Of a stretch of 64,000 bases of DNA, positions 16,604 through 20,903 are shown piece by piece (position 1 is the stretch's first letter; every line of letters starts with the position of its first letter). A program made the translations under genes and the position numbers. Under the pieces are notes generated by a model. That model had not been told where the DNA came from. It ran no database searches and worked only from the letters and a program-made list of their open reading frames with translations. The stretch covers positions 62,001 to 126,000 of the forward strand of contig NZ_JANXMU010000032.1 of NCBI RefSeq assembly GCF_025354435.1, in the 5' to 3' direction. The stretch is from Rhodoferax sp. GTDB lineage: Bacteria; Pseudomonadota; Gammaproteobacteria; Burkholderiales; Burkholderiaceae_C.

Positions 16604-16659
16604 GCTATTTATTTGATAGCAACTTACGCATATTCCATCTGCGCTAAAGGCCTTAAATA
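16604..16659 (-). repeat. Family A repeat after the LysE gene
   Basis: GCTATTTATTTGATAGCAAC, then TTACGCATATTCC and GCGCTAAAGGCCT: a family copy in minus orientation. It supplies the stop codon of the convergent protease-like gene. Confidence 0.75.
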
Positions 16660-17705
16660 CCTGTAGGTTTGCGCATGGTGCTCATGCGGTCTACCGCCTT
16701 GAGCACAATGGTCTTGATGTCGGCACCCTGCAGCACGGTGAGCTCGATGTCCACCTCGGCCTGGGCGTGGTCCCAGAGCTTTTTGTAAAAGCCCTCCAGC
16801 GTGCTGACCTTGGCACCGTCCACCGCCAGTACCACGTCACCGGGCTCCAGGCCCGCCAGCGCGGCAGGGCTTTCCTTGCTGACACGCACAATTTGCACCC
16901 GCCCAGCCTGCTCGCTGGAGGTCAAACCCACCCAGGGCCGGTGGCTTTGCTGGCTACTGCCGGTCGTCTGTAGCTCCGCCAGAATGGGTTTGAGCAAATC
17001 CACCGGTACAAACATATTGCCGGCAATGCGCGGACTGCGGCCCAGGGCATCGCCCACCAGCAGGCTGCCAATGCCCATCAGTTCGCCGCGCTGGTTGAAC
17101 ACCGCTGCGCCCGAATGGTTGCCCACCGGCGGACTGGTGAAAATGGCGCTGTCGATGTGGTATTCCCAATAGCCGGAAAATGGCCGCTGGCTGACCACCT
17201 GGACCATGTTCACATCGGCATCTTCACCGCCGAGTTGCGGGCCGGTGGAAGCCATCAACGGTTCGCCGGTGCGCAATTCCTGCAGACTACCCAGCTGCAC
17301 CGGCTGGATGCCACGCAAAGGCAAAATTGGTCGAATCAAACCAAAACCTGTCGCCAGGTCATAGGCCACGGCCTGGGCGGGCAGGGTTTTGTGGTCTTGC
17401 GTAACGACTTCGATGCTCTGCGCATCCACCATCAGGTAGCCGATGATCAAAATCAGGCCATCTGGCCCGATCACCACGCCCGAGCCGCTGCGCCGCTGGC
17501 CCAAAGTTTCGGCCGAGCGTGCGCCCTCTTCCACGCTGACCTGCACGCCCACCACGGCAGCGTTGGCCTTGGCAAGTATCTCGATGGTGGTCTGCACCGC
17601 CGGAGCCGCCGTGGCAGCAGCCAGCGCCAGGCAAGCCGAACCCCAAAAAGCCCACAAGCCCACGCCCAGAGAACGCAAACGGTAACGCCATAAACCGGTG
17701 TGCAT
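16653..17705 (-). CDS. DegP/HtrA-like protein with dead catalytic triad and PDZ domain
   Basis: 350 residues: N-terminal signal/anchor segment (about 11-35), a trypsin-like S1C domain (about 40-245) and a PDZ domain (about 258-338; SPAALAGLEPGDVVLAVDG). It aligns with HtrA proteases, but all three catalytic positions appear changed. The His of TNNHVV is Tyr90 (in LIIGYLMV), the Asp of DxxTD is Gly120 (DLATGFGLIR), and the Ser of GNSGG is His197 (GNHSGAAVF, with Ser198 next to it). So it is probably a periplasmic non-enzymatic, chaperone- or adaptor-like protein rather than a protease. The start at 17705 has a strong ribosome site (AAGGAG, seven bases away). The last codons lie in a family A repeat. 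Confidence 0.8.
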   Translation of the reverse strand: MHTGLWRYRLRSLGVGLWAFWGSACLALAAATAAPAVQTTIEILAKANAAVVGVQVSVEEGARSAETLGQRRSGSGVVIGPDGLILIIGYLMVDAQSIEVVTQDHKTLPAQAVAYDLATGFGLIRPILPLRGIQPVQLGSLQELRTGEPLMASTGPQLGGEDADVNMVQVVSQRPFSGYWEYHIDSAIFTSPPVGNHSGAAVFNQRGELMGIGSLLVGDALGRSPRIAGNMFVPVDLLKPILAELQTTGSSQQSHRPWVGLTSSEQAGRVQIVRVSKESPAALAGLEPGDVVLAVDGAKVSTLEGFYKKLWDHAQAEVDIELTVLQGADIKTIVLKAVDRMSTMRKPTGI

Positions 17706-17791
17706 GGTGAACTCCTTGGGCGGAACAGAGGTCCGCAAACCAAGAATGCGCCTAATTCAAACCATACACAACAGCGGGGATATTGGCGTAT

Positions 17792-18667
17792 TCAGCCCTT
17801 CACACGGCTTAACGCATCGGCCCAGCGCCAGGCCATCGCAGGGGAATTCATGCAGGTGGTGCGCTCACTGGCGCTGCAGACGGCGCGCTCCATCAGCTGG
17901 ATGTCAGCCTCGTGCTGGCGGGCCACATGCGGGTCTTCAAAAAATATGACCTTGTGGCAGGTGCCATCCAGCACGCGCTCGGCAATTTGCGCGTCGCCAC
18001 CCAGCGGGCCGCTACGATAGGGAGTGACCCAGGGCGTGCCAACGGGCCAGCCCCGGCTCCAGGCCATATCATTGAGCAAGCCGCCGGTGGTGCCAGTGGC
18101 CACCCGCTCGGAAAAGCGCGACAGCAAGTCAAACTGGGTGCCCGCAAACTCCACCATCTGGGTTTTCAAGGCGTCGTGGGCGATCAGCGCCACCACCTGC
18201 TCGGGCATGGCCTGCAGCAGTGCCGCACCAGGGGCCTGGGCGGCCTCCAGCCCGGCATGCAGGCTCTCTACTTTCAGCCACTCCAGTGCTGCCGCTTCGG
18301 TGGCCATAAAGGGCTTACCGTGGATCACGCACTGCCGCTTCAAGGCCTGCGCCTCGGGGAACAGCGAGGACGGATCGACCGGGTCGATCAAAAAAATCAC
18401 CCCGTCCAGCGCCTGCCCCGGCTGCACGCCGCCCACGATATGCGACACCAGCCGCGTCAGCCCGCCCGAATGCCCGTTCGGATAGCGCACCAGCCCCGGG
18501 AATTGGTCTAACAAGCCATAGCGCTCCACCGCGTCATAGGTGCCGCCGACAGCGTGCAAACCCAGCTTGAGGGCGCGCACGGCGGGTTCTGCGGCCTGCA
18601 GCCAGCGCAGCAAGCTGCTGTCCGAGCCCTGGCGGTGCAGGCGGTGGGCGATGAGTCCAAAGCGCAT
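17792..18667 (-). CDS. Methylglyoxal synthase-like protein with two MGS domains
   Basis: 291 residues, about twice the size of E. coli MgsA (152). The C-terminal half (about 158-265) keeps the enzyme's motifs at exact spacing: AHDALK (His164, Asp165, Lys168), TGTTG (191-195), GPLGGD (catalytic-type Asp225) and FFEDPHVARQHEAD (Asp245, His252, Asp255). It could convert dihydroxyacetone phosphate to methylglyoxal. The N-terminal half (1-131) has the same order of elements in degraded form: AHRLHR, GGTYD, GHSGGL, FLIDPVDPS. It thus looks like an ancient tandem duplication in which the first copy lost the catalytic Asp. The ATG at 18667 has a GGAG site. It lies 28 bases downstream of the helicase gene on the same strand. 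Confidence 0.78.
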   Translation of the reverse strand: MRFGLIAHRLHRQGSDSSLLRWLQAAEPAVRALKLGLHAVGGTYDAVERYGLLDQFPGLVRYPNGHSGGLTRLVSHIVGGVQPGQALDGVIFLIDPVDPSSLFPEAQALKRQCVIHGKPFMATEAAALEWLKVESLHAGLEAAQAPGAALLQAMPEQVVALIAHDALKTQMVEFAGTQFDLLSRFSERVATGTTGGLLNDMAWSRGWPVGTPWVTPYRSGPLGGDAQIAERVLDGTCHKVIFFEDPHVARQHEADIQLMERAVCSASERTTCMNSPAMAWRWADALSRVKG

Positions 18668-18695
18668 GGTGTCTCCTCAAATATTTTTTTGTAAT

Positions 18696-20852
18696 TTACG
18701 CCAACACGCGTCCCTGTGCATCTTTGCGCAGCCGCGCAAACGGCGGCAGGCCTTGCAGCAAGCGCTGGCCGTAGCTGGTGTCGCTCAAACGGCGGTCGTA
18801 GCAGTAAACGAAGGATTTGTCCGTCTCGGTGCGGATGGCGCGGCCCGCCCATTGGGCCAGCTTGATAGCGGTAGCGGGCACGACCAGCTCGCTGAACGGG
18901 TCGCGGCCCACACCACGCAACCACTCGGCACGCGACTCACCCACCGGGTCATCGGGCGAGGCAAAGGGCAGCTTGGCAATGAACACGGTTTCGCACAGCT
19001 GGCCGGGCAAATCCAGGCCCTCGCCAAAGCTTTGCATGCCGAAAATGATGGACACCCCGCCCGCGCCCACCCGCTCGCGGTGCTGCTGCATCAGGCGGAT
19101 GCGCGGCAGGTCGCCCTGCACCAGCACCTTGGGGCGCAGCGCGTCCGGCAGGGCCAGCACGGCTTGGCGCATCTGGTCGCGCGAAGTGAACAGGCACAGC
19201 GCGCCATGCTGCACCTCGGCCAGGTCGCGCACCAGGGCCAGCACCATCTCGGCCACAAAAGCGCTGGCGTTGCGCGGGTCGGCCAGGGTTTGCACGGTGA
19301 CAAACTGGCCCTGGGTGGCGTAATCGAAGGGGCTGACTACTTCCAGGGTGGTGGTGGCCTCGTCGTCTTTCAGGCCGGTCTCGCGCAGGAAAAAGTCGAA
19401 CTCGCCACAGCTGGTGAGCGTGGCGGAGGTGACCACTGCCGCCCGCACATTCGCCCACAGCTGGTGGCGCAGGGTCGAGCCCGGCAGGATGGGGCTGGCG
19501 CAGGCCTTGATCTGCACCCGGCCATCAGTCTCGGCCAGGGTGAACCATTTGGCGACCGGCGCGCGGGGAGGTTCAGACTCTTGCAGCAGCAGTTGGGCCG
19601 TGGCGTGCACCGACTCCAGCCGCGGCGACAGCATGCCCAGTTGCGCGTACAGCACCGACAGGCGGCGCGCCTCGTTGGGCGCGTCCTTCATCTCGGTGCG
19701 CAGGGCTTTGGCGATGTCGTTCAACACACCCAAAAAGCTCTCGGCCATCACGCTGACCATGCCCAGCGGCTCCACCAGCTCGGGCGGCAGCTCGCCCTTG
19801 GGCAGGCGCACGCGGGCCGGGCCGAAGGCACTGGGCGGCTCGCGCAAGGCATCGGCGTACAGCGTGGCCACGGTTTTGGCGATGTCTTCCAGGGTTTGCT
19901 TGAGCTGCGAGGCATAACGGCCCACGTCGGCCACCTCGGACACGCCCATCAGGCTGCCGATGCGCTTGGCGCGGCCCGCCAGGGTGTCGATCCAGCCCAG
20001 GCGGCTCAGGTCCATGGCGGTGGAGAACTTGTCCAGCGCCACGGCGGGCAGGTGGTGGCCTTCGTCCAGGATCAGCAGGCAGTTGTCCAGCTCGGGCAGG
20101 GTGCGCGTGCCCAGGGTGGACAGCAGCAGGTCGTGGTTGGCCACAATCACCTGCGCGCCGACCAGCTCCTTGCGCTTCTCGAAATAGGTGCAGCCATTGA
20201 AGGCCGGGCAGTGCTTGCCGGTGCAGCTGCTGGCCTCGGCGGCAATGGGCTGCCAAATGTCTGCATCAGGCTGCTGGGCCAGGTTGTCACGGTCGCCGTC
20301 CCAGGCGGCGGTAGACAAGTCGCGGGCCAGGCTGGCGTACTGCAGCATGCGGGCTTCTTCGTCGTGGCGCACAAAGCTGGCGGCGGCCAGCTCATCAGCA
20401 AACATGTCATCGTCGTCTGCCCCGCCCTCCCCGGCCAAGCGCGACAGCTTGAGCTTGCACACATAGCGCCCGCGCCCCTTGGCCAGGCCGAAGCGAAACG
20501 GCTCGTCCATCAGCGCCGCCAGCGCGGGCAGGTCTTTGGTCACCAACTGCTCTTGCAAAGCCACGGTGGCGGTAGAGATCAGCACGCGCGTCTTGCGCGC
20601 CAGGGCCACGGCGATGGCCGGGGCGCAGTAGGCCAGCGACTTGCCCACGCCGGTACCGGCCTGGATCACGGCGATGGAGCGCAACGGCGTGTCGTCTTCG
20701 TTCTCCATCTTGCCCAGCGTGGCTTCGCTGAAAGTCTGCGCCACCCGCTGCGCCATCAGCCGCTGGCCGGGCCGGCTGCGGAAGTCGCCCGCGGCACTGA
20801 CAACTTTGTCAAACGCGGCAAGGGCGGACTGGGCGGTGTGTTCGGGGGACAT
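18696..20852 (-). CDS. dinG: DinG/XPD-type ATP-dependent DNA helicase
   Basis: A 718-residue superfamily 2 5'-3' helicase. Walker A is AGTGVGKS (65-72), the DEAH-type box is DEGH in LLILDEGHHLP (about 268), and the C-terminal motif VI is AGRAIRTETD. Four cysteines of an iron-sulfur domain are visible: Cys in GRYVCKLKL and three in CTGKHCPAFNGC. Family members unwind R-loops and forked DNA after damage. The ATG at 20852 (MSPEHTAQ) is chosen; a TTG two codons upstream is possible. The methylglyoxal-synthase-like gene follows closely. Confidence 0.9.
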   Translation of the reverse strand: MSPEHTAQSALAAFDKVVSAAGDFRSRPGQRLMAQRVAQTFSEATLGKMENEDDTPLRSIAVIQAGTGVGKSLAYCAPAIAVALARKTRVLISTATVALQEQLVTKDLPALAALMDEPFRFGLAKGRGRYVCKLKLSRLAGEGGADDDDMFADELAAASFVRHDEEARMLQYASLARDLSTAAWDGDRDNLAQQPDADIWQPIAAEASSCTGKHCPAFNGCTYFEKRKELVGAQVIVANHDLLLSTLGTRTLPELDNCLLILDEGHHLPAVALDKFSTAMDLSRLGWIDTLAGRAKRIGSLMGVSEVADVGRYASQLKQTLEDIAKTVATLYADALREPPSAFGPARVRLPKGELPPELVEPLGMVSVMAESFLGVLNDIAKALRTEMKDAPNEARRLSVLYAQLGMLSPRLESVHATAQLLLQESEPPRAPVAKWFTLAETDGRVQIKACASPILPGSTLRHQLWANVRAAVVTSATLTSCGEFDFFLRETGLKDDEATTTLEVVSPFDYATQGQFVTVQTLADPRNASAFVAEMVLALVRDLAEVQHGALCLFTSRDQMRQAVLALPDALRPKVLVQGDLPRIRLMQQHRERVGAGGVSIIFGMQSFGEGLDLPGQLCETVFIAKLPFASPDDPVGESRAEWLRGVGRDPFSELVVPATAIKLAQWAGRAIRTETDKSFVYCYDRRLSDTSYGQRLLQGLPPFARLRKDAQGRVLA

Positions 20853-20903
20853 GGGCAAGGCGCAATAGACTGGATGGGCTTACAGTTTAACGGAGAGCTG
20901 AGA

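Follow-up and report, generated by a model that had tools for sequence, protein, structure and literature searches.

Why would a methylglyoxal synthase (MGS) carry a second domain of its own fold that appears unable to do the chemistry? The question is raised by a minus-strand gene in the window, which here means the whole 64,000-nucleotide stretch of Rhodoferax sp. DNA that was analysed. The original prediction read this gene as two MGS domains in tandem, the first of them degenerate and possibly an allosteric site for phosphate or another metabolite, and placed it at 17792-18667; these coordinates proved exact. The features to which we refer are the following.

17792..18667, minus strand: coding sequence of the two-domain methylglyoxal synthase, 291 aa (open reading frame; NCBIfam NF003559, E 2.1e-30)
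18667 and 17792, minus strand: ATG at 18667; the stop codon ends at 17792
18673..18678, minus strand: GAGGAG a few bases upstream of the start, a likely ribosome-binding site judged from sequence
18257..18667, minus strand: N-terminal MGS pseudo-domain, aa 1-137 (AlphaFold2 model, VIA match to 2x8w, residue counts)
18458-18460, minus strand: codon of Leu70, at the place of the catalytic Asp71 in the N-terminal half
18200..18247, minus strand: linker helix between the two domains, aa 141-156 (secondary structure of the AlphaFold2 model)
17807..18199, minus strand: C-terminal MGS domain with the complete catalytic set, aa 157-287 (profile, fold, residue counts)
17993-17995, minus strand: codon of the catalytic Asp225 in the C-terminal half
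18029..18061, minus strand: loop with extra residues in the C-terminal half, aa 203-213, WSRGWPVGTPW (TGTTG-SGP spacing)
18696..20858, minus strand: DinG helicase gene, a neighbour outside the system (NF008729, 759.5 bits, cut-off 598)

Profile and fold evidence for two MGS domains

The NCBIfam MgsA profile NF003559 matched the whole protein with 105.3 bits, above its cut-off of 84, and the best stretch was residues 156-274. When the halves were scored separately, the C-terminal half (C-half, residues 150-291) matched at E 1.2e-23 with 83.5 or 82.4 bits, just under the cut-off, and the N-terminal half (N-half, residues 1-149) matched at E 5.3e-06 with 26.2 bits, also under the cut-off; given the latter E-value, the repeat is more than chance. 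TIGR00160 scored 86.6 against a cut-off of 146.9. The Pfam MGS family matched the C-half only (17.9 against a cut-off of 24.1) and gave no match to the N-half, and a Pfam MGS search of the genome did not list the two-domain gene, the two PF02142 matches over the cut-off being other, longer frames of 666 and 1088 aa. Thus, Pfam alone would overlook the gene. No family other than MGS was matched in the 291-aa chain in either Pfam or NCBIfam. In a single-sequence search of solved structures, the MgsA matches covered residues 143-267 only, and one chance-level synthetic construct (E 1) was found at residues 130-210. Within E 1, a profile built from 62 N-halves retrieved only MgsA from the PDB (11 sequences, best E 1.9e-4). 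Profile alignment of the N-half was stronger with single-domain MgsA (E 1.8e-11) than with the C-half (E 0.0067).

Both halves superpose on MgsA by prediction, as a tandem of MGS domains would have it. The full-length AlphaFold2 model, computed with 89 two-domain proteins as input, had a mean pLDDT of 94.0 and a pTM of 0.91, and both Foldseek and VIA-align placed its C-half (residues 156-290) on MgsA (2x8w: VIA Z 17.1, rmsd 2.3, 123 residues aligned). The N-half is predicted to adopt the MGS fold as well: modelled alone (pLDDT 89.4), it aligned to 2x8w with a VIA Z of 17.4 and an rmsd of 1.9 Å over 123 residues at 26% identity, and the 26 PDB chains that it matched at E ≤ 0.001 were all MgsA. 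The top 12 rows of the VIA ranking were likewise MgsA (Z 14.8-17.4), followed by carbamoyl phosphate synthetase. We conclude that profiles, predicted fold and the residue counts given below support a gene for two MGS domains in tandem, the first of them catalytically dead, as originally proposed.

Ordinary MgsA (EC 4.2.3.3; Thermus sp. GH5 2x8w, B. subtilis 6f2c, E. coli 1b93) has the same fold as both halves and, like the C-half, a complete active site. It differs in being a single domain of ∼120-150 aa, whereas here two domains share one chain of 291 aa, the N-half lacks the catalytic Asp, and the C-half has ∼8 extra residues between TGTTG and SGP. In carbamoyl phosphate synthetase an MGS fold is likewise joined covalently to a catalytic part and is regulatory, but that part is the large synthetase chain, whereas in the two-domain protein it is MgsA itself; the 291-aa chain holds two MGS domains only, and its N-half is nearer to MgsA than to the allosteric domain of the synthetase (Z up to 12.3). 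With the tandem universal stress protein UspE, the likeness is confined to the general arrangement, a single chain that holds a pair of alpha/beta domains resembling each other (best Z 7.9, rmsd 5.1, 214 residues aligned, 10% identity).

Catalytic residues kept and lost

An excerpt of PMC7843640 names D71 of MgsA as the base, H19 and H98 as catalytic, and K23, T45-G49, S65 and G66-P67 as phosphate contacts. These positions follow E. coli numbering, which we took from the match to 1b93 (query 157-261 to chain 12-107). D20, D91, D101 and R107 are further conserved positions of MgsA, D101 being one of the catalytic residues. The C-half has every catalytic motif that had been claimed for it: H19, D20, K23, T45, G46, T47, T48, S65, G66, P67, D71, D91, H98, D101 and R107 were unchanged in 100 of 100 two-domain sequences, and G49 was Gly in 96, the window's protein included, and Ser in four, with the reservation that the patterns PLGGDAQI and HVARQHEA, by which 76 of the 100 were found, favour part of this conservation. 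Among the 24 sequences outside the pattern scan, the 14 positions recounted (D20 left out) were unchanged in all 24, and G49 in 23. Because catalytic conservation is complete, we infer that the C-half converts dihydroxyacetone phosphate (DHAP) to methylglyoxal and phosphate.

The exact MgsA spacing ascribed to this half was not found, since the stretch from TGTTG to SGPLGGD is longer by ∼8 residues. The distance from TGTTG to SGP was 23 residues in 97 of the 100 two-domain sequences, 24 in two and 39 in one, compared with 15 residues in 19 and 16 in 10 of the 29 single-domain proteins measured (35 loci were tried, and six did not fit the search expression). The longer loop reads W-x-[RK]-G-W-P-x-x-x-P-W, or close to it, in most of 17 aligned two-domain sequences and, judged by these alignments, marks the two-domain class.

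Both the missing catalytic Asp and the altered phosphate-binding residues foreseen for the N-half are borne out. In the window, Leu70 replaces D71, Val40 T45, Gly42 T47, Tyr44 G49, Asn64 S65, His66 P67, Leu102 H98 and Glu105 D101, and Asp16 stands at the place of K23; H19 (His8), T48, G66, D91 and R107 are kept. Across the 100 two-domain sequences, the position of D71 is Leu (96) or Val (4) and that of H98 Ile, Val, Thr, Leu or Met; T45 is mostly replaced by Val (92), T47 by Arg (79), Gly (18) or Ala (3), S65 mostly by Tyr (69) and P67 mostly by Arg (85). The place of K23, as located by alignment, is Asp in 81 and Arg in four, and H19 is Asn in 81, His in 16 (the window among them) and Ser in three. 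The residues kept are G46 (99), T48 (91), G66 (100), D91 (96) and R107 (100), with D101 present as Glu in 99 and as Asp in one. With the catalytic Asp and most of the phosphate contacts gone, the N-half should not do MGS chemistry, and on its residues we file it as an MGS-fold pseudo-domain and not as a synthase.

Other features of the N-half are held constant. Exactly one Arg occurs at position 12 or 42, never both, in all 100 sequences, which suggests that a positive charge is kept; the tree explains the exchange by one change, which makes it weak as coevolution. The window has Arg12; positions 42 and 66, which are Arg in most relatives, are Gly and His, respectively, in its protein. E105, A108, L109, R111, Q112, C113, P119 and T123 were invariant in 89 sequences, at some of which positions the most diverged relative (locus L118) departs, and 19 columns were invariant in a set of 62. 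One explanation for this conservation is that the N-domain is an enzyme of a different activity, such as another step on triose phosphate or methylglyoxal: Glu105, Arg111, Gln112 and Cys113 were present in 89 of 89 sequences, His116 in 86, and Lys and Arg at position 118 in 76 and 13, respectively. However, the catalytic base has given way to Leu or Val without exception, we know of no MGS-fold enzyme with the residue set of the N-half, and we regard this explanation as improbable.

The two-domain protein of locus L118 itself (L118:1498-3087) is extended at its C terminus by a tail of ∼215 aa, which looks coding by codon-position GC; this tail matched no Pfam or NCBIfam family up to E 10, and its PDB matches were at chance level only.

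Selection, spread and origin

Substitution rates speak to whether the N-half is a duplicate that is decaying without function. Over 2463 overlapping pairs (dS 0.2-1.2), the median NG86 dN/dS was 0.30 for the N-half and 0.26 for the C-half; over 39 independent pairs the medians were 0.18 and 0.16 and the largest values 0.60 and 0.44. The loss of catalytic residues would fit decay, as would the slightly higher dN/dS of the N-half, which exceeded that of the C-half in 24 of the 39 independent pairs (Wilcoxon P 0.05). However, N-half dN/dS was below 1 in all 39, which largely contradicts decay, and the 19 invariant columns and the presence of the form in several families argue the same way, so that we give this explanation hardly any credence. 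The N-half is slightly freer than the C-half but clearly constrained, under purifying selection. The word degenerate therefore suits the N-half with respect to catalysis and not otherwise, and its selection and wide spread back the original view that a fused pseudo-domain has been retained for some function.

The two-domain form is common in the Comamonadaceae, the Alcaligenaceae and the families of Xanthomonas and Dyella. One genome per species was scanned, which yielded at least 595 pattern matches, at least 542 of them relatives. Of these we retained the best 80, each of which spans both halves by its matched range; because the ranking was by similarity to the whole query, two-domain forms were favoured, and the count is no frequency. 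Among these 80 were proteins from Polaromonas, Curvibacter, Rhodoferax, Variovorax, Comamonas, Delftia and Acidovorax, from Achromobacter, Bordetella, Candidimonas and Pollutimonas, and from Xanthomonas, Stenotrophomonas, Pseudoxanthomonas, Luteimonas, Lysobacter, Dyella and Rhodanobacter. When genomes were sampled at successive ranks, the two-domain form and a single-domain match only were found in 17 and 41 of 200 genomes (family), at least 13 and at least 21 of 250 (order), at least six and at least nine of 369 (class) and at least 11 and at least 86 of 398 (phylum), the last three pairs being lower bounds because six to nine candidates were scored per genome. Three of the 80 relatives (L042, L045 and L054) have a stop codon inside the stretch matched by tblastn. 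The two-domain protein of a record labelled Pantoea (L061) groups with the Comamonas/Acidovorax set, possibly because the genome is mislabelled or contaminated.

None of the 200 family genomes had a two-domain and a single-domain MgsA together (P 0.017 by chance on the assumption of independent genomes, which does not hold here). Outside the two-domain gene itself, a scan with NF003559 (E ≤ 0.001) found no second MgsA in any of 35 two-domain genomes, one of which was 87% complete; the control detected MgsA in 10 of 10 single-domain genomes, at 162-180 bits, and the re-scan picked up the N-half itself in 13 of the 35. The two-domain protein is thus probably its organism's only methylglyoxal synthase. 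No stand-alone N-domain was found among the 200 family genomes, where all 17 strong matches sit in the two-domain gene and 10 weak matches came from genomes with a single-domain MgsA.

In a tree of 17 sequences for each half, the N-halves and the C-halves each formed one clade, and the two together stood against single-domain MgsA with a support of 82/32 on 125 columns, with long branches meeting. This tree decides neither for internal duplication nor for fusion of a separate copy as the origin of the N-half. In a quick-method tree of 100 sequences, 17 that are mostly Comamonadaceae or carry the window's family code fell inside a supported clade of 54, the remainder of which is mostly Lysobacteraceae and Rhodanobacteraceae and whose inner forks lack strong support; this placement suggests that the two-domain gene has moved by horizontal transfer. 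Of 43 matching plasmid records, a single one covers at least 80% of the query: a copy in Acidovorax sp. DW039, which carries the annotation 'methylglyoxal synthase'. The domain, the chemistry and the name are already known; the tandem architecture with a conserved, dead N-half may be new, as no description of such a protein turned up among the open-licence papers listed, judged by titles and the starts of abstracts.

A regulatory or a structural N-terminal domain

We put it at about an even chance that the C-half is the methylglyoxal maker and the N-half a pseudo-enzyme domain that binds an anionic metabolite and regulates the C-half, likely within an oligomer. The C-domain would turn over DHAP, and the N-domain, with the MGS fold and without DHAP chemistry, would keep a remodelled set of pocket-type residues, namely Glu for Asp101, Arg107, Asp91, Gly46, Gly66 and one Arg at 12 or 42. 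A putative pocket of this kind would bind some anionic metabolite that is not the substrate and pass the signal to the C-domain, in an oligomer whose N-domains may stand in for half of the usual subunits, e.g. a trimer in which each chain has both domains. Two points make an allosteric site plausible: in human carbamoyl phosphate synthetase, the allosteric domain, which binds the activator NAG, has an MGS-like fold (from an excerpt of PMC4655335), and the N-half keeps several conserved pocket-type positions. Ordinary MGS is described in a portion of PMC8451662 as inhibited by ATP, 3-phosphoglycerate and PEP, and by phosphate in a competitive allosteric manner. Phosphate itself appears less likely as the ligand of the N-half, because most of the phosphate-contacting residues have been replaced. 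Against a regulatory ligand site, the window lacks Arg at 42 and 66, the N-half evolves slightly faster than the C-half, and no neighbouring gene that might hint at a ligand was common to most loci, the commonest neighbour cluster occurring at 23 of 81.

The conservation of the N-half could also serve an interface alone. The N-domain would then be purely structural, replacing alternate subunits of the MgsA hexamer to leave three active sites in a pseudo-hexamer, without a ligand of its own. This fits the observations nearly as well as an allosteric site: the confident full-length model suggests a fixed arrangement of the domains, the N-half was found only fused (all 17 strong matches among the 200 family genomes), and each half forms one clade. 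However, the equivalents of Gly66, Asp91, Asp101 (as Glu) and Arg107, which line the MgsA active site, are conserved, and an interface would not obviously need them; we hold a purely structural role to be possible but somewhat doubtful. A regulatory ligand site and the structural replacement of subunits may also hold together.

Methylglyoxal is toxic, and its synthase therefore needs tight control. Returning to a regulatory N-domain, we suggest tentatively that the two-domain proteins are a widespread MGS class in which the former active site is now a sensor for another phosphorylated or anionic metabolite and gates the branch from glycolysis to methylglyoxal. If so, the gating of this branch would fall to a built-in pseudo-enzyme and not solely to phosphate binding in the active sites of a homohexamer. 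Control of MGS by a fused pseudo-enzyme across a whole branch of the Pseudomonadota would be a clean natural example of how an active site can be converted to a regulatory or structural use, with a parallel in carbamoyl phosphate synthetase, whose allosteric domain has the MGS fold. The proteins named 'methylglyoxal synthase' in these genomes would then depart from the E. coli model in their architecture, and probably in how they are controlled.

Around the gene, dinG ends 28 bases before the MGS start codon on the same strand, and the two are perhaps co-transcribed; among the loci compared, only the window and three close relatives (L004, L033 and L034) showed this adjacency. Other neighbours vary by lineage, and some resemble, by eye, glutamate synthase or isc-cluster genes. 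On the other side of the gene in the window, 16653-17738 (minus strand) encodes an HtrA/DegP-like protein with trypsin-like and PDZ domains, at scores far under the NCBIfam cut-offs; its catalytic His region and its GNSGG motif (GNHSGAAV) look altered by eye, and it may be an inactive protease.
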